The notes under the pieces were generated by a model. It saw nothing but the letters and a program-made list of their open reading frames with translations. It was not told where the DNA came from and did not search any database. A DNA stretch of 39,438 nucleotides from a virus: IMG/VR virus record IMGVR_UViG_3300036861_000235, positions 1 to 39,438 of that record, one strand, 5' to 3'. Both the position numbers and the translations under genes were made by a program. Shown piece by piece: positions 9,380-33,269 of this stretch. Positions within the stretch are counted from its first letter, which is position 1; each line of letters starts with the position of its first letter.

Positions 9380-9621
9380 GCGGCACGCTCCCTAGCCTTC
9401 GCCCAGACTTTCCACGCCTTGTGATCAGGACTACCGATCAACGGCTCAGGTTGCGGCTCGTGGTGAGGGCAAGCGCAGAACCAATGCCAGCCGGTAGAGG
9501 CCCGCAGAATCCCGTCGCATTCGTCGTGGCGATCGTTGCGACACCATCCACTGATATCGCTATATGGGTCCCGCGGACCCGGTTCCCACGGGGTGCCGCT
9601 CCATGCGGTTCGCGTCTTCAT
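9376..9621 (-). CDS. Cys/Trp-rich hypothetical protein
   Basis: 81 aa. CRNDRHDECDG followed by WHWFCACPHHE (Cys, Cys, Cys-x-Cys, His-His) suggests one zinc site. An aggagaagg ribosome-binding site lies before the ATG, and the ATG overlaps the stop of the 30-aa gene. Function unknown. Confidence 0.6.
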   Translation of the reverse strand: MKTRTAWSGTPWEPGPRDPYSDISGWCRNDRHDECDGILRASTGWHWFCACPHHEPQPEPLIGSPDHKAWKVWAKARERAA

Positions 9622-9710
9622 TCGTCGTCCTTCTCCTTGGACGGCGGCGGCAGCGGCTTGGTGGGTGGTGGCCGCGGTGGCGGCTCGTTGTCGATCGGGC
9701 GGTCGGTCAT
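9618..9710 (-). CDS. short Pro-rich peptide gene
   Basis: 30 aa with PPPRPPP and LPPPSK runs and a charged end (KEKDDE). The start and stop both share ATGA overlaps with neighbours, which supports translation. It may be only a coupling peptide. Confidence 0.45.
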   Translation of the reverse strand: MTDRPIDNEPPPRPPPTKPLPPPSKEKDDE

Positions 9711-9907
9711 TGCGCAGTCGCCCCGATGTACCGCTCGACCTCGGCGAGGTCGAAGACGTAGGTGGCGGTGACGCCGGATGGTCCTTGGACTTTGATCGCG
9801 GGGAGTTCACCGGATTCGGCTAAGCGGTGAACGGTGCGGACGGACTTACCGATCAGCTCTGCCACTTGCAAGGACGAGATGAATGGCCCTCCGCGCGATT
9901 CGGTCAC
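9707..9907 (-). CDS. HTH protein, Xis/Cro-like
   Basis: 66 aa. The MerR/excisionase-type helix-turn-helix (SSLQVAELIGKSVRTVHRLA, then ESGELPAIKVQG) covers residues 11-45. It is the first gene of the leftward operon and is divergent from the repressor operon. Proteins of this type act as excisionases bending att DNA, or as Cro-like lytic regulators; the sequence does not separate the two. The GTG start lies about 10-30 nt after the predicted promoter. Confidence 0.75.
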   Translation of the reverse strand: MTESRGGPFISSLQVAELIGKSVRTVHRLAESGELPAIKVQGPSGVTATYVFDLAEVERYIGATAQ

Positions 9908-10016
9908 GTGCGCAGCATGCTACAAACGTCCTGATCGCGTCAAGTGTTTCACGGGAAACAATCTGAGGTCCTTGGAGTTGTTGACGCGATCGCGACAGGT
10001 TACGTATGGTGCATCC
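9908..10016. promoter_or_regulatory. divergent immunity promoter region with repeated operator
   Basis: Rightward: -35 TTGACG (9981-9986), 18-bp spacer, -10 TATGGT (10005-10010), then only 6 nt to the ATG at 10017, so the message is probably leaderless. Leftward: -35 TTGACG (9943-9938 on the minus strand) and a weaker TAGCAT -10 (9922-9917, 15-nt spacer). The 11-mer TTGACGCGATC occurs at both -35 boxes in opposite orientation (9933-9943 and 9981-9991), a good candidate operator for repressor or Cro control of both directions. Confidence 0.65.
9945..9960. promoter_or_regulatory. parS-like palindrome
   Basis: TGTTTCACGGGAAACA matches the bacterial centromere site parS (TGTTTCACGTGAAACA) at 15 of 16 positions. 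It lies between the two divergent -35 boxes. The left half-site is a perfect parS half. The right half reads TGTTTCCC on the other strand, with the C that distinguishes Noc sites from ParB sites at that position. No ParB gene is in the window, so binding by host ParB or use as the repressor's own operator are both open. Confidence 0.55.
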
Positions 10017-10208
10017 ATGAACGAGCAGACATTGGAAGGCATGATCGAGACGATGCTCGCCGATTTCGAACGGATCGAGCAGCGGCAGGAGCGAACCAAA
10101 GCGCTGCTCACCGATCTTGTGCGGCGTCAACAGGAGCACGAGCGGGGCATCGCCGAAGTGCAGGCGTGGATTGAGCGACTCGAATCCCGGATCAAGGAAC
10201 GCCAATGA
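10017..10208 (+). CDS. coiled-coil protein, first gene of lysogeny operon
   Basis: 63 aa, almost all one helix with heptad periodicity (MIETMLADFERIEQRQERTK ...). The ATG lies 6 nt after the -10 box, i.e. leaderless. Its stop overlaps the repressor ATG (ATGA). It would be made together with the repressor in lysogens and might modulate it or act in its own right. No family is recognised. Confidence 0.6.
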   Translation: MNEQTLEGMIETMLADFERIEQRQERTKALLTDLVRRQQEHERGIAEVQAWIERLESRIKERQ

Positions 10209-10573
10209 ACGACGACGACCAGATACCCCCGTGGACGTTGGGCTGGCGGCTACAGCGCGCCCTCTCCTGGGCTGACATGAACACCGAGGAGATGGCCTAC
10301 GAGCTTGGTGTGGCCCGCTCCACGGTCAGCCGGTGGTGCAACGACAAAGGGCACCCAACCCGGGGATACCTGAAATTGTGGGCGCAACGCACAAGAGTCC
10401 CCCTGAACTGGTTGCTTCAGGGAGACTCCGGGCTCCCGCGGAGGGACTCGAACCCCCAATCTGCCGGTTTGGACCCTGTCCCTCGTCCGTTCGGCGCCGC
10501 TGAGAAGCTGGCGATGAGCAAGCTCATACCGATCAGTGCGGCGCAGCTCATCCAATCGGCCCGTAGTCGATGA
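10205..10573 (+). CDS. HTH immunity repressor with attP inside the gene
   Basis: 122 aa. A helix-turn-helix lies at about residues 24-60 (NTEEMAYELGVARSTVSRWC). Residues 77-88 (LPRRDSNPQSAG) are the translation of a tRNA 3' end, i.e. the attP core. Integration would therefore replace everything after about residue 88 with host-encoded sequence, so the prophage would make a different, probably shorter, repressor than the free phage. In BPs-type mycobacteriophages this arrangement ties immunity to integration. The C-terminus (QSARSR) has no obvious ssrA-like LAA tag. The ATG overlaps the previous stop, and the stop overlaps the integrase ATG. Confidence 0.8.
   Translation: MNDDDQIPPWTLGWRLQRALSWADMNTEEMAYELGVARSTVSRWCNDKGHPTRGYLKLWAQRTRVPLNWLLQGDSGLPRRDSNPQSAGLDPVPRPFGAAEKLAMSKLIPISAAQLIQSARSR
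10431..10470 (-). other. attP core: 3' end of a tRNA gene (tRNA-Asn-like)
   Basis: Read on the minus strand, this is the 3' half of a tRNA: anticodon-stem remnant AAACCGGC, variable loop, T arm (GGGGG, loop TTCGAGT, CCCTC), acceptor strand CGCGGGA and discriminator G. A73-position G with a predicted U1-A72 pair, and AAACCGG after an anticodon, fit actinobacterial tRNA-Asn best. The 5' half is absent, so it is not a tRNA gene but an attachment core that restores the host tRNA upon integration. Confidence 0.75.
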
Positions 10574-11475
10574 CCGTAGAACCCGCTACTCCTAGTTACC
10601 TCGCGTACACGGAGGTTCTAGGGGAGGCCGCGATGCGCTGGGTTTACGCGATCGACGCATGGACGAGTTGGATGATCGCCGCCGGGACGTCGATACGCAC
10701 CATAGAGCTTCGCCGCTACCAGATGCGGCGACTCGCCGAAGCGAATCTGCACCGTTCACCGTGGCGGATCAACACCAACGACCTGGTCGACTGGATGTCT
10801 GGGCAGTCATGGTCGCAGGAGACCCGCCGTTCCTACCGCGCCACGCTGCGGGCGTTCTATCGGTGGGCTGAGCAGTCGCAGCGGACTCGCCGCAACCCAG
10901 CCTCGAGCCTGCCGGCGGTCCACGCACCGCACACCGTGCCCAGGCCGACGCCCGACGAAGTGATCACCGAGGCGCTGCGGTCGGGCTCCGACCGGGACCG
11001 GCTGATCCTGTCCCTCGCCGCTTATGCGGGGTTGCGGCGCGCCGAGATCGCCCAACTGCGATGGGATCACATCACCGGTGAGGGCATCCGCGTCCACGGG
11101 AAAGGCGGGAAGATCCGCATCGTGCCGGTCCACCCCGAACTGCAGCGGTTGATCGTCGCGGAGAAGTTGCGCCGCAACGCCGGCCGCTCCGGCACCGGCT
11201 ACCGGTACACCGCTGGGCTGGATGGGCCGTGGCTGTTCCCCGGGCAGTGCGACGGGCACATGACCCCCGCCGCCATCGGCAAGGCCGCTGTCCGCGCCCT
11301 CGGGCCAGGCTGGGGCGCCCACTCGCTGCGGCACCGCTTCGCCACCAGGGTGTACGCCGGCACCCACGACCTGCTGGCCGTGCAGGAACTGCTGGGGCAC
11401 GCGAAGCCGGAAACGTCGAGGCGGTATACGCAGCTGTCGGACGGTGCGCTGTCCGACGCGGTCAACACGCTCTGA
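10570..11475 (+). CDS. int: tyrosine integrase
   Basis: 301 aa. An N-terminal SAM-like core-binding domain (about 24-105) is followed by the catalytic domain, with R156 (GLRRAEI), K181 region (GKGGKIR), H251-x-x-R254 (HSLRHRF), H277 (LLGHAKPE) and nucleophile Y286 (RRYTQLS). All catalytic residues are present. It would recombine the tRNA-derived attP inside the repressor gene with the host tRNA. The ATG overlaps the repressor stop (ATGA), so int is expressed with the repressor before integration and is separated from that promoter afterwards. It overlaps the convergent HNH gene by 14 bp at the 3' end. Confidence 0.9.
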   Translation: MTVEPATPSYLAYTEVLGEAAMRWVYAIDAWTSWMIAAGTSIRTIELRRYQMRRLAEANLHRSPWRINTNDLVDWMSGQSWSQETRRSYRATLRAFYRWAEQSQRTRRNPASSLPAVHAPHTVPRPTPDEVITEALRSGSDRDRLILSLAAYAGLRRAEIAQLRWDHITGEGIRVHGKGGKIRIVPVHPELQRLIVAEKLRRNAGRSGTGYRYTAGLDGPWLFPGQCDGHMTPAAIGKAAVRALGPGWGAHSLRHRFATRVYAGTHDLLAVQELLGHAKPETSRRYTQLSDGALSDAVNTL

Positions 11476-12019
11476 GATAAGCCGCGGCGCGCATCGCAGA
11501 GTCCGGGTTATCGCGAAGATAGCTGAGTGCCAAGTTGCATGATCTACACAGAAGCCCGCGCACCGTTCCTGTCGTATGGCAGTGATCTACGGCGGGAACC
11601 TGTAGCTGCTTGAGGCAGATGGCACATGTGCCAGACTGATCGTCTAGCATCTCTTGGACCTTCTCGTTCGTAATGCCGAGGTGCCACCGCCTCGGGTTGG
11701 AGTATCCACTCGAAGATTTGCGCTCGCGCTCACGCTTCGCAGGGCCGTATCGCCGAGCCTCCTCTCTTAGAGCTGTCCGGCAGCGAGAGGGATAGGGTGT
11801 CCGGACCCGTATGGGCACCCCAGGGCCACATTGCGAGCAGTCGGCCATCTTCCGAACGGCATCGATGTTCGAGAGTCGATGCCAACCATCTGAAGATCGG
11901 CGCGTAGGGGTTCCCTGGGACTTGCGTCGCGCAGCTTGGTAATGCCTATTGCACAAGCCCTTAGCGTAGGTCGGACGATCACAACCATCTTCTGAGCATA
12001 GATTCGAGGCCGTCGCCAT
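11462..12019 (-). CDS. recombination endonuclease VII-type HNH nuclease
   Basis: 185 aa. The N-terminal zinc motif CSEDGCDRPTYAKGLCNRHY (C8, C13, C23, H26) is followed by a basic middle. The EndoVII core GTCAICLKQLQVPAVDHCHT, then VRGLLCRSCN (zinc Cys and active-site DHCH), lies at the C-terminus. The N-terminal finger resembles HNH proteins of actinophages. It may be a homing-type or debranching nuclease. It stands alone downstream of a terminator and convergent to int, so it may be a selfish insertion. The ATG follows a TATCAT -10-like box by 7 nt. Confidence 0.8.
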   Translation of the reverse strand: MATASNLCSEDGCDRPTYAKGLCNRHYQAARRKSQGTPTRRSSDGWHRLSNIDAVRKMADCSQCGPGVPIRVRTPYPSRCRTALREEARRYGPAKRERERKSSSGYSNPRRWHLGITNEKVQEMLDDQSGTCAICLKQLQVPAVDHCHTTGTVRGLLCRSCNLALSYLRDNPDSAMRAAAYLRAC

Positions 12020-12044
12020 AGAGCCTATGATATAGGAGCCTGGA

Positions 12045-12087
12045 CCCAAAAAGACTAAAAGGCCCAGCCTCCCGAAGGAGACTGGGC
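12045..12087 (-). terminator. intrinsic terminator, minus strand
   Basis: The stem 12062-12072 / 12077-12087 has 10 of 11 pairs with a cgaa tetraloop. On the minus strand it is followed by ccttttagtcttttt. This is a good Rho-independent terminator that would end leftward transcription coming from the GntR gene and insulate the HNH gene. Confidence 0.7.
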
Positions 12088-12114
12088 GAAGGATGAGGCG
12101 GCTGCCGTATCGTG

Positions 12115-12348
12115 ATGGGCGTGAGCGATCTGGTGATGACGCACGCCATCGCATGCGAGTGGTGTGGTGCGGAGGTCGGCGAGCCCTGCATGATCGCCGG
12201 ACGTGGGCTCTCCCGTGATCCTTACGGGAATGTCAGGGCTACAGATCCGAGGCCATACAGCGGGGGGCGACGGGAAGTTCACACCATCCGCGCCGTGCCA
12301 CGCGATCAGCATGAGCAGTGGCTGAGGGCTAGCGCCGCCCGTCCCTGA
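12115..12348 (+). CDS. small zinc-finger-like protein
   Basis: 77 aa from the ATG chosen here. GTG at 12112 or 12121 and ATG at 12136 are alternatives, and none has a clear ribosome-binding site. CEWCGAEVGEPC followed by a distal His (VHTIRAVPRDQH) resembles a short zinc finger found in actinobacterial mobile elements. It converges on the GntR gene with a 20-bp overlap. Function unknown. Confidence 0.5.
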   Translation: MGVSDLVMTHAIACEWCGAEVGEPCMIAGRGLSRDPYGNVRATDPRPYSGGRREVHTIRAVPRDQHEQWLRASAARP

Positions 12349-18664: not shown

Positions 18665-21475
18665 TTACCTGGCCCAGACCGGGGTTTTCCACAGTCGCAC
18701 GTCGGCGCCGGTCGACTGCGCCTTCACGATCCCGTTGACCGAGCGGATGACGGTGAACGTCTGCGGTGACGTGGTGCCGGCGATGTCGGTGACGGTCATC
18801 CGCTCACCGCCGATATAGATGTCGAACCCGTCTTCCGCGTCGGCTGCTGTCCACACCGGTCCCACTGTCGTCGCCACGGACAGGCTCGTCGCGGTGGAGG
18901 TGATGCCGGCGGCGAGCGCCGATCCAGCGGTGTCCCATTTCCAGGCGGTGCCGGAGACCGCGGATTCCCACATCACCACGTGATAGGGCGACTCGGGCGT
19001 GCAATTGATGACCAGATCATGCCCGGTTTTGGTGATCTGGTCGGTGGATCCCTGCACGATCAGGTCAACGGGATCCGACGACGCCCAGATGGGCAGATTG
19101 GTGAGGGTGATCCGGTCGCCGATGTCCAGGTCGAACGCGAGGTCGGACACCCGCAGGCCTGGATGGACGGTGATGGTGGGGAACCGTGCCGCGTCGACCG
19201 TGCCGAGGTGCAACGCCCAGCCGGCCACATTCCCTAGATCACTGTCCGCTTCGACGTTCACGTCGATCGAATCGTCATAACGCCCCACCCCATCCGGGTG
19301 AGACTGGATCGACAACGGGCCTTCCTCGAGCACCGCTCGATAAGACGAGCCGCCGGAACGGGTGGCGGTGATGTCGTTCCTCGTGGACTGGTCGTCGTCG
19401 ACCGTGTTGGGCGGTTCGGCGTACACCCCTGTGCCGTAGGGCAGCGTGAAGATCGCGGGGCGGTTGTAGAGACTGCCGAGGGTGCGATAGGCGACCCCGG
19501 TCATGCCCCGCGGTTCGTACAGGATCCCCTGATCGGCGTCGGCGCATTCCTGCAACAGCTCGAGCAGCGACACGGGCCGTTGCGGGCCCATCGCCGCTGA
19601 TCGTGGCGACACACCCGCAGCACAGGACGCGTCGTCGCCGACGATCTCACAATCAAGGTCTTCCTCGTGACAGAGCCGCTCAACCCGGTCCGCTGCGGTT
19701 TCGCCGGTGAACCCGTTGTACGCCAGCCCAAACGGGTCCATGGAGATGGCGGCGTCCTGGGTGACGGTGACGTGCCCGATGCTGCGCTCATCCGTGGATG
19801 TGATGAGCAACCCCACCGAGGAAGGCCGGCCGGCCGAATGGCTGCCCGCAACGTTGGCGGACCAAGACGCATCGACCGTGCCGTCCATGCTGACGATGCT
19901 GGCGATGTAGGAAACAGTCGAACCGGATTGGTTGATCCGCAGTTTGCAGCGGTGCCACTTGCCGTAGAAGTCGGCCGGGATGCTCCCGAACGCGTCGGAG
20001 AAAACAAGCGCCCCCGAGTCATCGTCGCAGGCAACCGACAGGCCCGTCGCCGTGCACAGCAAATACCACCGGGCGAGATTGTCGCTGCTGGTGAACACAG
20101 AGATCAGCTCACGGGCGGTCCCGCCGGGGGAAGTTCCCATGTAGAACACCCAGTCGACCCGCCACGGCACCGTCAACGACTTCGTGATCGTCGGGTTGCG
20201 CCCGTACGTGACGATGGTGGGGACCTTCCCGAACATCGACCCGTTCTGTTTCCACGTCGGCAGGTCCAGCGAACCGGGCGGCCCTTCCTGCGAAGCGGGG
20301 TCGACGAGGGTGGGGGCGTTGCCGAGCATCGGCGAACCACCCGGCAACCCGGATGCGAACCCGCGGGACTGTGCGGCGTCTTCCATCGGCCAGTACGCGA
20401 CGACCCCCTGGCCGGTGGCGTACTGGATTCGGGGTGGGGTTTTGGTGGGGACCCGGCGGGCCAGCGCCGACCGCAGCGCCGGGGAGCCCTGCCCGAGGCG
20501 TTGTGTCACCCCGGCGATCGTGGTGGTGGTTTGGGCGAACTGCCCACCCCTTATACCCGACTGCGGCCAGGACGAGGCTTCGCCGGTGATCCGCGGCCAC
20601 CAGTTCGTCACCCCAGACACGACCCGCATGATCGACAGGTTCGTGGCGGGGCCTGGGATGAAAATATTGTGCGCCCCAGGGGTCTTGACCCGTTTCAGCC
20701 AGCCCCGCATCCGGAAGTACGCGGCGTCCGCGTCGGCGACGTTGACCGTGCCGGTGTCGACGACGGGGATCCAGCCCCCTTCGTCCATGATCGGCGTGTG
20801 GGGGATGACCTCGTCTTCGTCGTCCCACGCCCAGTAGGTGAAGATGAGCAGCCAGTCCCCGGCCACAGTCCCCGAGTCGGTGGTGAGGATCGAGTCGACG
20901 TCGGTTTCGGTTTCCTTCACCGTGACCGTGCCGGACAGCAGCACCGACGCGGACAGGTAATCTTCCGCGACGGACATGGTCCCGGTCCGGGTTCCGGTCG
21001 CACCGGCACTGGTGATGGCTTCGTGCGCGGATCCCATCGCCGACTTCGCGTCGGTCCACGCGGCGGTGCCGGTCATGCCACCCGGGTAGGTGTACGTCGC
21101 GGCGGGGGCGGGGCCGGCCCACGCGCAGAACAGCCGCGCCGCCGACCACGGCGAGTCGACCGACGGGGCGAGCTGCGCGGTCTTGTCGACCAGGTCGACG
21201 GTGGAGGCGGCCCGCCAGTTCCGGCGCCCGGTGGACAGCCGGGCGGGGGTGTTCCGCCCCAGCTGCCCGTAATAGATGCCGGTGGGGTTGCGGGGCGCGA
21301 ACTTACCGGTGGTGGTCCGCAGCGCGACGGTGGCGCTGGACGGGTCGGTGTGGGCGCCCTCGTCCTGCCGGCCCCGTGTCACGTCGATGGAGTCGTCGGC
21401 GAGCAGGTCGGGGGTGGTGACGTCGGTCCAGTCGGGCAGCCCCAACTCGAGGCGGACGTCGCGGATGCTGGTCAA
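18665..21475 (-). CDS. minor tail protein (tail tip)
   Basis: 936 aa. The N-terminus (VRLELGLPDWTDVTTPDLLA, then residues SIDVTRGRQDE) is typical of actinophage tail-tip proteins following the tape measure. A jelly-roll/LamG-like segment (about 350-600, with GKWHRCKLRINQSG and repeated beta strands) is inserted before a C-terminal part with FTGETAADRVERLCHEE and Gly/Thr-rich strands. The TTG start overlaps the tape-measure stop (TTGA). Confidence 0.75.
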   Translation of the reverse strand: MTSIRDVRLELGLPDWTDVTTPDLLADDSIDVTRGRQDEGAHTDPSSATVALRTTTGKFAPRNPTGIYYGQLGRNTPARLSTGRRNWRAASTVDLVDKTAQLAPSVDSPWSAARLFCAWAGPAPAATYTYPGGMTGTAAWTDAKSAMGSAHEAITSAGATGTRTGTMSVAEDYLSASVLLSGTVTVKETETDVDSILTTDSGTVAGDWLLIFTYWAWDDEDEVIPHTPIMDEGGWIPVVDTGTVNVADADAAYFRMRGWLKRVKTPGAHNIFIPGPATNLSIMRVVSGVTNWWPRITGEASSWPQSGIRGGQFAQTTTTIAGVTQRLGQGSPALRSALARRVPTKTPPRIQYATGQGVVAYWPMEDAAQSRGFASGLPGGSPMLGNAPTLVDPASQEGPPGSLDLPTWKQNGSMFGKVPTIVTYGRNPTITKSLTVPWRVDWVFYMGTSPGGTARELISVFTSSDNLARWYLLCTATGLSVACDDDSGALVFSDAFGSIPADFYGKWHRCKLRINQSGSTVSYIASIVSMDGTVDASWSANVAGSHSAGRPSSVGLLITSTDERSIGHVTVTQDAAISMDPFGLAYNGFTGETAADRVERLCHEEDLDCEIVGDDASCAAGVSPRSAAMGPQRPVSLLELLQECADADQGILYEPRGMTGVAYRTLGSLYNRPAIFTLPYGTGVYAEPPNTVDDDQSTRNDITATRSGGSSYRAVLEEGPLSIQSHPDGVGRYDDSIDVNVEADSDLGNVAGWALHLGTVDAARFPTITVHPGLRVSDLAFDLDIGDRITLTNLPIWASSDPVDLIVQGSTDQITKTGHDLVINCTPESPYHVVMWESAVSGTAWKWDTAGSALAAGITSTATSLSVATTVGPVWTAADAEDGFDIYIGGERMTVTDIAGTTSPQTFTVIRSVNGIVKAQSTGADVRLWKTPVWAR

Positions 21476-24123
21476 CGAATGTCCCCGCCCTGCACCCGGA
21501 TCATCTTCCGGATGAGCCGTTTCAGGTCGGAGTCAGCACCCGTAACATCAATGACGACGCGGGTGGAGCCGCCAGCACCACGGGGGATCACGGCCTCGCC
21601 ACGGTGTAGCCACGCTGGGCCGGTACGAGACACGAATGGTGTGCCGCTGGCATAACTGAGCATGTTGCCGCCAGTGCGGACACCCCAGTTGAGGTGGATG
21701 GCCTTCATCAGCTTCCGCAGGTCCGACGCTACGAGGTTCACCGAGCCGTTGCCGCCGAACACGCCACCCAGCGACGCGAGGTAATACTGCTTCGCGAACC
21801 GCATCACCGACTGGGCGCCCCGCCCCACGTGGATCCCGGAGCGGGTGGAGGCGGCCTCGAAGGGGAGGCCCCCGATGTTGCCGGCCATGTGCGTGTACGG
21901 GTTCACGCCGATCGTGTAGGCGCCGGTGCCTGGCCTGAAGCCGAGGCTGCGGAAGTCGCTCGCGGTGGTGAAGTACCGCCGGTAGAGGGCACGCCCCGTC
22001 AAGGCGGCGTAGGGCAGCCCGGCGAGCCCTGAGCAGTCGAACCCGTTCGGTCCGACGCCGCCCCAGATGTACGGGTCGGAGGCTTGCGCGCGGACCAGCT
22101 GCTGCGCCTTACCGACGAGGCCACCCCCAGCAAACCCGAGGGTCATCCCGGCTGGGTCCCCGCCGATGGATTTGGCCCCGTTCAACGTGTCGAGGAATTG
22201 GGTTCCCAGCTGCCGTGCCCTGTCGGCCTTGATGACGTACTCGCCTCGAGTGAGTCTCGCGTCGACCTTGTCGATGCCGGCCGGGCCATGCACCGGTCCA
22301 CCAGTCGCTAGCGCGATCGGCTTGCCGGTGATGGTGAGGGACACGCCCTGCTGCGCGGCGATCTTCAACCGGTTCTTCATCTGCATCTTCACCGACACGG
22401 TCACGGTCTTGCCATGGGTGCGGTTGATGCGGTCCTGCAGATCCTTCACCGAATCTTCGGCGCCCTTAATGGCCTCCTTGGCCTTCTTGAAGGGCTTACC
22501 GAGGGGGCCGGGGAGTTTCGCGAAGACGCTGACGAGGTTCCCAACGCCGTGGATGATGCCCCGCACCACGTCAAAGAACAGGTTGGCGACGAACAGGAAC
22601 ACGGCCCGGAAAACGTCCTTGATCTTCTTGAAGTTGTCGATGATCAGTTTTGTGGCGATCCCGATTGGGCCGGTGAGGATTGCGAGGAGCAGCGGCCAGT
22701 TGTGCTTCACCCAATCAAAAGCCGTCTTGAATGCTTTGGTGATCGTCTTCCAGTGCTTGATGATCAGGAACGCGGCCCCTGCGATGACCACGACAAGGGC
22801 GACCACGGGAGCAGCGGCGGCGATGGTCGCCACCGCGGCAGCCCCAGCGGCGACAGCCCACGCGACGAACGCGGGAACCAGCACAACCCCGATCGCAATC
22901 CCCAACGCTGGGATGATCTCCCGATTGTCTTTGATCCACTTGGCGAGGGTGGCGATGACGGGAACGACCCTGTCGGCGACGATCGACGCCAGGATCTTCA
23001 ACGCCGGCAGAACAACGGTCTTCAGGACCCCACCCAGATCCTCGAAGATGATCAGGAGAATGGGGCCAACGTTCTGGGCCAGCCGCTGCAGCGCAGGGAA
23101 CAGCTGATCGCGGACGATTCCGCCGATGGTGACCAGCGCGTTCGCCAAGATGGGGCCAACAACCGCGATGAGCTCACGAACGAACTTCGCCACCCGGGCG
23201 ATGACAGGGGTTGCCTTCTGTTCCAACGGCCCGATGAACTTGCTGACCGCTGGGATCACCTTGTTCGCGATGACACTGGCGATGACGGTCAGCGCGGGCA
23301 GGAGGACGTTGCCGATCCGCTCGCCGAGGTTCCCGACGATTACCCGGAGTTTCTCCATCGGGTCGGTGCTCGCCGCGGCGGCGCCGCCGAACTCCTTACC
23401 CAGCTCCTTCAGGATGATCTTCTGAGCGTCGAGAGTCCTCCCCGACTCGGTGAGTTTCTTGATCTGGTCGGTTTGCTGTTTGGTGAACGAGACGCCAACC
23501 TTGCGTAGTGCGGTCACGCCCTTGATCGGGTCGTTAAGGGCCTTACCCAGTTGGATGGATGAGGCTTTCAACCCGGAGGAGGACACCTCGCCGTTGTTGA
23601 GCGCCGCGGTCATGTCGACGATGGCCTGCGACGCCTGGTTGAAGATGTCGTTACCTTTGCCGGTTTCGTTCCTGATGTTGGTGAACGTCAGGAGCAAGTT
23701 TTGGCCGGACTGGATCGCCTCGTCGTCCTTACCGGTCTTGTTCGAGATGGCAGTGGCGAGAGCACTAACCTGCCCAGCGGTGACCTTCGCACTTCCACCG
23801 GTCGACTTGATGACTTGAGCGGTGATCCGGGCGATCTTGTTCGACTCGCGGGCATCCGCGATGAACCCGGAAAACACTTTGACCGCGCCGATCGTGGCGA
23901 ACGCGGCACCGATCCCCACAACCGACTTGGTGAAGATCCCGCCGATGGCCCGGAACGGACCCGCCGTGGCCTTGGCGAACGTCGCGCCGAACACGCGGCC
24001 ATGTTTCTTGCCCTGCTGGGCTAGACCACGACCGGCCTTGTCGACGTCCTGTTTGACCTCCTTGCCGAACCCCGAAGTGTCGGGGCGGATCCGCACGAAC
24101 GCGGTGGCTATGGGGGTTGCCAT
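21472..24123 (-). CDS. tape measure protein with NlpC/P60-like domain
   Basis: 883 aa. The N-terminus ATAFVRIRPDTSGFGKEVKQ and a long helical region with Ala/Val-rich membrane-like segments (about 70-90 and 402-455) mark a tape measure. Near residue 690, DPYIWGGVGPNGFDCSG with a downstream His (YTHMAG, about 743) matches the Cys and His of NlpC/P60 peptidases, which would open peptidoglycan during DNA entry; the third polar residue is not clear. The length predicts a tail of roughly 130 nm by the usual 0.15 nm per residue rule. Confidence 0.85.
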   Translation of the reverse strand: MATPIATAFVRIRPDTSGFGKEVKQDVDKAGRGLAQQGKKHGRVFGATFAKATAGPFRAIGGIFTKSVVGIGAAFATIGAVKVFSGFIADARESNKIARITAQVIKSTGGSAKVTAGQVSALATAISNKTGKDDEAIQSGQNLLLTFTNIRNETGKGNDIFNQASQAIVDMTAALNNGEVSSSGLKASSIQLGKALNDPIKGVTALRKVGVSFTKQQTDQIKKLTESGRTLDAQKIILKELGKEFGGAAAASTDPMEKLRVIVGNLGERIGNVLLPALTVIASVIANKVIPAVSKFIGPLEQKATPVIARVAKFVRELIAVVGPILANALVTIGGIVRDQLFPALQRLAQNVGPILLIIFEDLGGVLKTVVLPALKILASIVADRVVPVIATLAKWIKDNREIIPALGIAIGVVLVPAFVAWAVAAGAAAVATIAAAAPVVALVVVIAGAAFLIIKHWKTITKAFKTAFDWVKHNWPLLLAILTGPIGIATKLIIDNFKKIKDVFRAVFLFVANLFFDVVRGIIHGVGNLVSVFAKLPGPLGKPFKKAKEAIKGAEDSVKDLQDRINRTHGKTVTVSVKMQMKNRLKIAAQQGVSLTITGKPIALATGGPVHGPAGIDKVDARLTRGEYVIKADRARQLGTQFLDTLNGAKSIGGDPAGMTLGFAGGGLVGKAQQLVRAQASDPYIWGGVGPNGFDCSGLAGLPYAALTGRALYRRYFTTASDFRSLGFRPGTGAYTIGVNPYTHMAGNIGGLPFEAASTRSGIHVGRGAQSVMRFAKQYYLASLGGVFGGNGSVNLVASDLRKLMKAIHLNWGVRTGGNMLSYASGTPFVSRTGPAWLHRGEAVIPRGAGGSTRVVIDVTGADSDLKRLIRKMIRVQGGDIR

Positions 24124-31006: not shown

Positions 31007-31336
31007 CTACTTGTTCCCATCTCCTTGAGCCATGCCAGGGAACACAGCGCAGTCCTGGCCTTCGTCTCTGGTGGTCACCACGGCCATGACGGGACGGCCT
31101 TCACCGTCGGTGGTCACGATCTCGTCGCCGACGTAGTCGCCGCGTTCGACCTTCTCGACCTTCGCCTTCGTGCCAGCCGCGATGTATGGCGCCGACAGAC
31201 CGTAAAGGCCCGCACAGGCATGGAACGGGGTGTGCGGGCGCGCCTCACGGGTCACATGCTCGGCGGTGCAGTTGGGGCATTCCCAGTGCTGCTCGGGGAC
31301 TGGGAGGATCGTCACCCGTTCACCCCGCATGTACAT
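31007..31336 (-). CDS. zinc-ribbon-like protein of the head operon
   Basis: 109 aa (107 if the second ATG is used). WECPNCTAEHVTREARPHTP followed by FHACAGLYGLSAP gives C-x2-C and H/C ligands that recur in actinophage structural operons, followed by a beta-rich domain. The ATG lies inside the end of the glycosyltransferase gene. Function unknown. Confidence 0.6.
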   Translation of the reverse strand: MYMRGERVTILPVPEQHWECPNCTAEHVTREARPHTPFHACAGLYGLSAPYIAAGTKAKVEKVERGDYVGDEIVTTDGEGRPVMAVVTTRDEGQDCAVFPGMAQGDGNK

Positions 31337-33269
31337 GAGCGGGGCTCGCGACGAGGTAGTCGGCGGCGCGGACCTCGTCGATCTTGCCGACGCCGGGCTG
31401 CCAGTTCGACCCAACAGAGGCGGCGACCTCGAATTCGTACCCGAGGTCGGTGAGGGTCTGTTCGAGGTCTTCACGTTCGTAGTAGCCGTAAATGTCATGG
31501 CATTCGATCACCAGGACCGGCTTGTACTTCTCGAGGAGGCCAGCCATGCCACGCAGCGCGTGAATGTCAGCGCCTTCCACGTCGAGCTTCATCAGATCAA
31601 GGCGACCAGCATCAGCGAGAAGATCCAGGATCGGCTGATAAGAATCCAGCCGGACAGCGGGCACCATGTCCGTCTGCCCGTTCACCGATGGAAGGGTGCG
31701 AGCACCTCCCCCATCGAGCTGATGGTTGGGGTCCTCCAAATGGAGAACGGTATTTTCATCCCACGCGGCGACCTGGACCACGTCAACGTTATGAACGTCG
31801 TTCATGGCGAGGTGCCGGCGCAGGGTGGCGGCGGTGGATGGGTTCGCCTCCACCGCGATCACCCTCGAGGCGACGGGCGAGAGGCGGATCGACCACCGCC
31901 CGACATGCGCACCCACATCCAGGAGGACCCCGCCCTTCGGGAACAAGGTGGCGAGGACCGGCTGCAACCAAGATTCGTGGTCGGAGAACGCGACCCAGTC
32001 GTCGGTGCCGGAGCCGCGGTCCAACCACACCCACCCATCAGATTCTTTGATCTTCGGGGGTGGCGGTTTCGTTATCATCGTTTTGATGTCTTCAGCCCGA
32101 GCGGTCAGAGCCTGCTCGAACTTGTCGAGGACCGGCTTCCAGTACTGCTCAATGATGGTGTCCGCGTCGTACAGCTGGGCGAACGCCCAGGCGTCCGCTC
32201 GCATCCCCTCGTCGCGGGCCTTGTCGTACGCCTCCAGGTACGCGTCGACAATGTCCCCCACGCGAGGTTTCGCCGCCCACGCACCTTGACTGTCATGCCA
32301 CATCGGCTCGTAGCCGACCTTCCACCCCGACCCGCACAACTCAGGCATCGCAGTTGCGTCGGTGACGACGACGGGGGTGCCGCACGCTTGCGCTTCGATG
32401 ATCGGGATGCCGAACCCCTCCCCGTAGGAGCAGTTCGACAGAACATCGAAACAGCGATGGACCTGAGCCACGGCTTGGATGTTGAGGCCCTTGCGGTAGT
32501 GGTAAATGTCTGTGAACGAATACGACCCGTCGGGCAGCATGTCCCGCAGCAGATGCCGGATCTGCGCCCCACCCGGGGCGTCCACATCCGTGTGGAGGAC
32601 CAACATCACGTCGGAGTGTTTCCGGCGGAGCTCCGCGAACGCCATGATCTGCTCAGCGAACGCTTTACGGTTCCCGTCGCGGCCGGCGTTGTTGGCGACC
32701 ATCCCCACGATGAACGCGTCCTGCGGGAGCCGCTCCCCCGCCCGAGCCTCAACCTTGTCGCCGGGCCGGAACACAGTCGTGTCGATCCCATGCGGGACAT
32801 AAACAGGGTTCAAGCCCGCTTCCCGTAGGGCGTTCTCGCCGAAGCGGGACATTGCAATCGGCACGGCGCCGGACCCCTCGAACCAGCCCTGCGTGAGATA
32901 AGGCAGCTGCAGGTGGTCGACGGGGGTCCACGACCCGATCGCCAACTTGTCGAGCATCGGCGACTGGAACGTGAACACATCCCCCAACGTGATAATCAGG
33001 CCGCGGGACGAGGCCTCCGCGAGGGACCGTGCCGACTCGGCGTCGAAGTGGTGCAGGGCGTGGGGGACGATCACGTCACTGCCATAGGCCGCCGAGTAGG
33101 ACGGCAACACCTTCAGGCCGTTCCACATCAGCTCGGCGCCTTGCAACCCGTAGTAGGCGCTGATCACAAGGTCGTGCCCGAGGTTCTTAATGCGGGGGGC
33201 GTTGATCGCGGTCTGCTGCCCGTACCCGGTGGGCGCCCACGGCGCCACCGAATGCCAAAGGATCTTCAC
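31320..33269 (-). CDS. fused glycosyltransferase (GT-B) and FkbM methyltransferase
   Basis: 649 aa. Residues 1-400 are a GT-B enzyme: N-terminal KILWHSVAPWAPTGYG, and the E-x7-E motif in SYGEGFGIPIIEAQACGTPV that binds the donor nucleotide. After a Lys/Pro linker (KPPPPK), residues 410-640 are an FkbM-type SAM methyltransferase with VLLDVGAHVGRWS (about 451) and LMKLDVEGADIHALRG (about 560). It could add a sugar and then O-methylate it. Its location inside the structural operon points to glycosylation of virion proteins. Confidence 0.85.
   Translation of the reverse strand: MKILWHSVAPWAPTGYGQQTAINAPRIKNLGHDLVISAYYGLQGAELMWNGLKVLPSYSAAYGSDVIVPHALHHFDAESARSLAEASSRGLIITLGDVFTFQSPMLDKLAIGSWTPVDHLQLPYLTQGWFEGSGAVPIAMSRFGENALREAGLNPVYVPHGIDTTVFRPGDKVEARAGERLPQDAFIVGMVANNAGRDGNRKAFAEQIMAFAELRRKHSDVMLVLHTDVDAPGGAQIRHLLRDMLPDGSYSFTDIYHYRKGLNIQAVAQVHRCFDVLSNCSYGEGFGIPIIEAQACGTPVVVTDATAMPELCGSGWKVGYEPMWHDSQGAWAAKPRVGDIVDAYLEAYDKARDEGMRADAWAFAQLYDADTIIEQYWKPVLDKFEQALTARAEDIKTMITKPPPPKIKESDGWVWLDRGSGTDDWVAFSDHESWLQPVLATLFPKGGVLLDVGAHVGRWSIRLSPVASRVIAVEANPSTAATLRRHLAMNDVHNVDVVQVAAWDENTVLHLEDPNHQLDGGGARTLPSVNGQTDMVPAVRLDSYQPILDLLADAGRLDLMKLDVEGADIHALRGMAGLLEKYKPVLVIECHDIYGYYEREDLEQTLTDLGYEFEVAASVGSNWQPGVGKIDEVRAADYLVASPAHVHAG

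Follow-up and report, generated by a model that had tools for sequence, protein, structure and literature searches.

Does integration of a phage decide in which form its repressor is made, and hence whether the phage confers immunity? This question is raised by a locus in which a tRNA 3' end lies inside a repressor gene (rep) that is directly followed by an integrase gene (int). The locus is part of the IMG/VR virus record IMGVR_UViG_3300036861_000235, which was analysed over its whole stretch of 39,438 bp (the window). The features of the locus are collected in Table 1.

Table 1. Features of the rep-int locus, with positions in the window.
Feature	Position	Strand	Remarks
Divergent HTH_17/excise-like (Cox-like) gene, 66 aa	9707..9907	-	Pfam HTH_17, E 5.7e-8
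Control region, 109-bp gap between divergent gene and leader ORF	9908..10016	.	Paired 11-mers
Sigma-70-like promoter for the orf-rep-int operon	9981..10010	+	TTGACG, 18 nt, TATGGT; consensus match only
Leader ORF, 63 aa, function unassigned	10017..10208	+	ATGA overlap with rep
Repressor (rep), viral form, 122 aa	10205..10573	+	Ends QSARSR
Part of rep retained in the prophage form (88 aa, predicted)	10205..10468	+	In silico join; same junction in Kribbella
attP core, 3' half of a tRNA-Asn gene	10431..10469	-	Antisense to rep, in frame
Tail of rep, 34 codons and stop, predicted to be lost on integration	10469..10573	+	Ends QSARSR
Tyrosine integrase (int), 301 aa	10570..11475	+	Ends AVNTL; Phage_integrase, E 6.8e-21

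Gene order and control region

The int gene lies downstream of rep on the same strand, and the two genes share an ATGA overlap, as had been stated in an initial annotation of the window. The divergent gene upstream also matched phrog_66 (excisionase/regulator, E 2.5e-8), and phages Fishburne and EricDab carry excise at the same place and on the same strand. The closest rep and int genes that we found (50-54% identity) are on the contigs IMG/VR 3300036861_000301 (L049; 54% for int) and 3300037478_000371 (L048; 51% for int), both of which also have a tRNA-Asn-type core in rep. L049 shares the ATGA overlaps, the presence of a leader ORF and the lack of AA tags with the window, while its tail differs. 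L048 differs in the tail as well and has no leader ORF; its rep and int are separated by a short ORF, and its int ends with DAAA. A search for near-identical phages revealed none. An actinobacterium is the likely host, given what rep, int and terminase are related to.

The leader ORF had no match among PHROG families or phage records, and a different ORF of 61 aa is found at its position in L049. By eye the leader product, encoded between promoter and rep, appears charged and coiled-coil-like. Straight after int a protein with a Recombination endonuclease VII domain is encoded on the opposite strand (11462-12154).

The control region harbors the 11-mer GATCGCGTCAA (9933-9943) and its counterpart TTGACGCGATC (9981-9991) on opposite strands, and no third exact copy is present in the window. 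This arrangement, which by eye is similar in L048, suggests a candidate operator pair. Outside this region exact copies of the 11-mer were absent, and matches with up to two mismatches were within the range of shuffled sequences. Within 9600-11700 the site listed in Table 1 was the only promoter-like one (0.3 expected), and the plus-strand copy of the 11-mer includes its -35 hexamer.

The tRNA-Asn core and the predicted outcome of integration

The minus strand of 10431-10471 matched the tRNA-Asn (GTT) of Kribbella, an actinobacterium, at 35 of 41 positions, whereas 20 shuffles of the window gave 25 at most. The attP core comprises the acceptor strand, the T-arm, the variable loop and the 3' part of the anticodon stem, and lies in frame on codons 76-88 of rep, which is where the initial annotation had placed a tRNA 3' end. 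That annotation had extended the segment to 10470. The location was correct, but the last base matching the tRNA is 10469, with mismatch from 10470-10471 on. The T-loop-like sequence GGTTCGANTCC within the core is the sole site of this kind in the window, and no complete tRNA gene was found there, so that the record represents the free (attP) form. No direct repeats of at least 10 nt were found in 10330-10640, a search that short or degenerate arm-type integrase sites could escape.

We looked for a host tRNA-Asn gene with the same core. The exact 37-mer had no match in the genome contig collection, and with up to two mismatches the core had none in 395 Actinomycetes genomes; neither junction (attL or attR) of the window phage was encountered. 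A 24-mer with one mismatch was found in Kribbella catacumbae alone among 392 genomes of the order of Kribbella, because a prophage had replaced the tRNA 3' half in this strain. The join was made with the 5' half of a Kribbella tRNA-Asn gene, and it reduced rep from 122 to 88 aa with the end NPQSAG-TAA. The hybrid tRNA was recognized by ARAGORN as tRNA-Asn(gtt) and folds into a cloverleaf.

The end of the core reads GCC GGT TTG in the phage and GCC GGT TAA in the antisense strand of tRNA-Asn. In antisense, tRNA positions 37-36-35, which are A37 and the final two bases of the anticodon (TT), read T-A-A and so form the stop. Integration would thus add only a stop and no host codon at all. The earlier view that the 5' part of rep is kept and extended by host-derived 3' codons holds for the 5' part, as seen in the join and in prophages, but not for the codons. 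In the relatives of tRNA-Asn type the core is used in a single frame, and TCG, TGG, TAC or TAT is present at the position of the stop codon, where the window has TTG. This amounts to a rule: any tRNA-Asn host is bound to provide rep with its stop in the frame that is used, because the anticodon GTT together with A37 gives TAA on the other strand. In an AlphaFold model of rep a five-helix HTH domain (residues 12-72, pLDDT about 95-98) precedes a core region that is disordered and a tail predicted, with little confidence, to be helical. Since the HTH domain ends near residue 72, the 88-aa form would keep the DNA-binding domain.

The end state of such an integration is seen in K. catacumbae, where a prophage occupies a tRNA-Asn gene on contig NZ_AQUZ01000004.1 (about 181.1-205.0 kb; L041/L042). 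Its int, which is 46% identical to that of the window, is located at 181.3 kb, and the tRNA-Asn gene at 205.0 kb, 24 kb away. The ORF of the HTH repressor enters the tRNA-Asn gene in antisense and stops at the expected QPAG-TAA, so that the tRNA, the frame and the stop codon are the same as for the window phage. The T-stem of this tRNA-Asn is GATGG/CCATC, but ACTGG/CCAGT in the 34 further genomes of the family that gave a match, and the native 3' end with ACTGG/CCAGT adjoins int. We concluded that the phage had replaced the 3' half of the tRNA. Both attL and attR were clear when compared to the intact sites of these 34 genomes. Rejoining the junctions gave a viral repressor of 104 aa that ends with LAMVA, and the int ends with LNAA. 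The K. catacumbae phage thus differs from the window in having tag-like ends on both proteins, and its repressor is merely distantly related.

With the predicted 88-aa form as query, 12 matches were obtained in the 395 Actinomycetes genomes, and in six of these genomes the homologous repressor, which belongs to relatives and not to the window phage, stops inside a tRNA-Lys or tRNA-Arg gene. Taken together, homology, the in silico join and the host prophages give good support to the location of attP in rep, to the truncation of rep at integration and to the separation of int from rep; the transfer of int to the other junction had also been part of the initial annotation. In one bacterial assembly (L145, G114) a related repressor reads through the core (RDSNPEPAG-LSAAPVIPIGRKQVA) as a viral-type form with a VA end.

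Repressor family and the missing C-terminal tag

Rep matched HTH_3 (E 1.6e-7) and phrog_2328 (E 1.9e-22). The 219 phage records matching rep were chiefly from Mycobacterium clusters P and G and from Gordonia phages. By these matches rep belongs to the repressor family found in integration-dependent immunity systems, which occur in mycobacteriophage clusters G, I, N and P and in Gordonia phages. The order excise(-)/rep(+)/int(+) was conserved in phages of clusters P and G and in Gordonia phages; in most of the relatives fetched the divergent gene was excise-like or HTH and int was downstream of rep. The repressors of relatives also contain the translation of an antisense tRNA T-arm, such as RDSNPE or GFEPPTF. 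Single-protein scans of the viral contig collection did not find relatives, but alignment queries did. Foldseek with the rep model returned generic HTH folds only, none below E 0.001. Conservation of the rep tail appeared likely by eye and failed the shuffle test (p 0.07 for L048, 0.37 for L139, 0.47 for L049), which leaves the similarity of 10469-10573 to the tails of relatives not significant.

Integration-dependent immunity was reportedly described by Broussard et al. in 2013 for phage BPs and clusters G, I, N and P. These phages and the window have in common that attP is within the rep ORF, that int follows rep, that an excise/cro-like gene is divergent, and that 33-34 C-terminal residues are lost on integration with a stop from host sequence, as predicted for the window. 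Angel shares the ATGA overlap of rep and int. The window differs from these systems by the use of tRNA-Asn as attB, by the lack of an AA/AS-type C-terminus on rep and int, by a short linker between HTH domain and core, and by the extra leader ORF before rep. Giles, which the initial annotation had listed as an example of this layout, is named apart from clusters G, I, N and P (PMC4557955) and does not fit as an example by this source.

The ends of rep (QSARSR) and int (AVNTL) were as annotated before, and neither is ssrA-like or of AA type. The repressors of relatives nearly all end with AA, VA or AS, and 58 of 77 related integrases have AA, AS, VA, GA or AV ends, compared to 11% of background ORFs. 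The known tag had been taken as LAA, which does not always apply: the repressor of Angel, a member of cluster G like BPs, ends with KAS. In the integrase tree the window groups with L049, L048, L128 and L139 (SH-aLRT 94). L049 is tagless on both proteins (rep RPASQ, int AVRSL), and int of L128 and L139 also has no tag. The repressor of L139 ends with LAA, and no T-loop is recognizable in its ORF; attP may have moved or decayed there. A sequencing error hiding the tag was considered and is unlikely, as the ATGA overlap is intact and L049 is an independent contig. The clade has thus truly lost or replaced the tag, and its absence is not due to an error in a single contig.

Tagless systems of this kind are not new. 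Four M. abscessus prophage clusters (MabC, MabN, MabO, MabH) have attP in rep, a tagless rep and int, and a truncation by 20-35 residues, and other degradation signals 'similar to phage BPs' were presumed for their repressors (PMC8092301). The likeness to the window is one of layout; host and attB sites are different (PMC8092301).

A candidate switch and its alternatives

In silico we could establish that the cassette belongs to the family, place the core in its reading frame, obtain the stop and a rebuilt tRNA from the join, and find the same end state in relatives. The best explanation, which we regard as probable, is that this cassette makes the immunity of an actinobacterial temperate phage dependent on integration. 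A single promoter would drive the leader ORF, the 122-aa repressor and the integrase in the free phage, with the excise-like gene divergent. The integrase would recombine the attP inside rep with the 3' end of the host tRNA-Asn gene. At attL the tRNA would be rebuilt with the 3' half of the phage, and rep, meeting TAA on the opposite strand, would stop after 88 aa, which leaves its DNA-binding domain whole. The tail of 34 codons and int would move to attR, away from the promoter, and we propose that int expression would fall as a consequence. The 88-aa form would be the active immunity repressor. The initial annotation is thereby confirmed in what it observed and partly supported in its interpretation.

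That the free-phage form is inactive is suggested by analogy to BPs. Neither rep nor int has an ssrA-like end, and thus nothing visible in this phage accounts for a proteolysis step in the switch. The 122-aa form may be weak or unstable through a signal in the tail other than a C-terminal AA tag, and inactivation by other means, as considered earlier, is possible. As a tentative view that falls short of being probable, the clade of the window and L049 either has a means of controlling free rep that requires no AA degron at the C-terminus, or retains attP inside rep although its immunity no longer depends on integration. Control without this degron may, for example, rely on another degradation signal in the tail or on a tail that blocks assembly. 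Whether C-terminal proteolysis is needed for the switch at all could readily be tested in the tagless clade, and a simple phage decision switch is extended to a clade that uses tRNA-Asn.

The second of these options, which we consider unlikely, has the same anatomy with a rep that is active in both forms. The tag would have been lost, immunity would be integration-independent, and attP would now merely uncouple int from the promoter and shorten a dispensable tail. This would fit the lack of an AA-type end on rep and int, the lack of conservation of the rep tail, and the tagless int of other clade members (L049, L128, L139). In BPs the A135E change stabilises gp33-136, lysogeny is increased with the stabilised protein, and the two forms are alike in DNA binding (PMC4557955). 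However, attP has been kept in rep, in frame and with the stop position open, also in L048 and L049, and such retention would be relaxed if viral-form control were lost. The degradation signals that were presumed for the tagless M. abscessus repressors (PMC8092301) also argue against it.

A very improbable reading takes the tRNA-like segment for a relic or an attP without function, with the real attP elsewhere and an ordinary repressor: the core does differ by several bases from every tRNA-Asn compared and has no matching host in the collections searched, but it is the sole T-loop-like site of the window, its phage half restores a good tRNA-Asn cloverleaf, its position and frame are as in relatives, and the Kribbella prophage demonstrates that T-arms of phage and host may differ because the phage replaces them.

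Further ORFs with matches lie outside the locus on the minus strand. The 936-aa protein encoded by 18665-21475 matched phrog_5313 (function unassigned) over nearly its full length (E 3e-163), and its residues 668-835 matched a family annotated as phosphodiesterase. The adjacent 883-aa protein (21472-24123) matched tail tape-measure entries and, towards its C-terminal end, contains a segment of an endolysin family (NlpC/P60-like). A single ORF of 649 aa (31320-33269) has matches to both a glycosyltransferase family (residues 1-376) and, further on, a methyltransferase family (residues 429-612).
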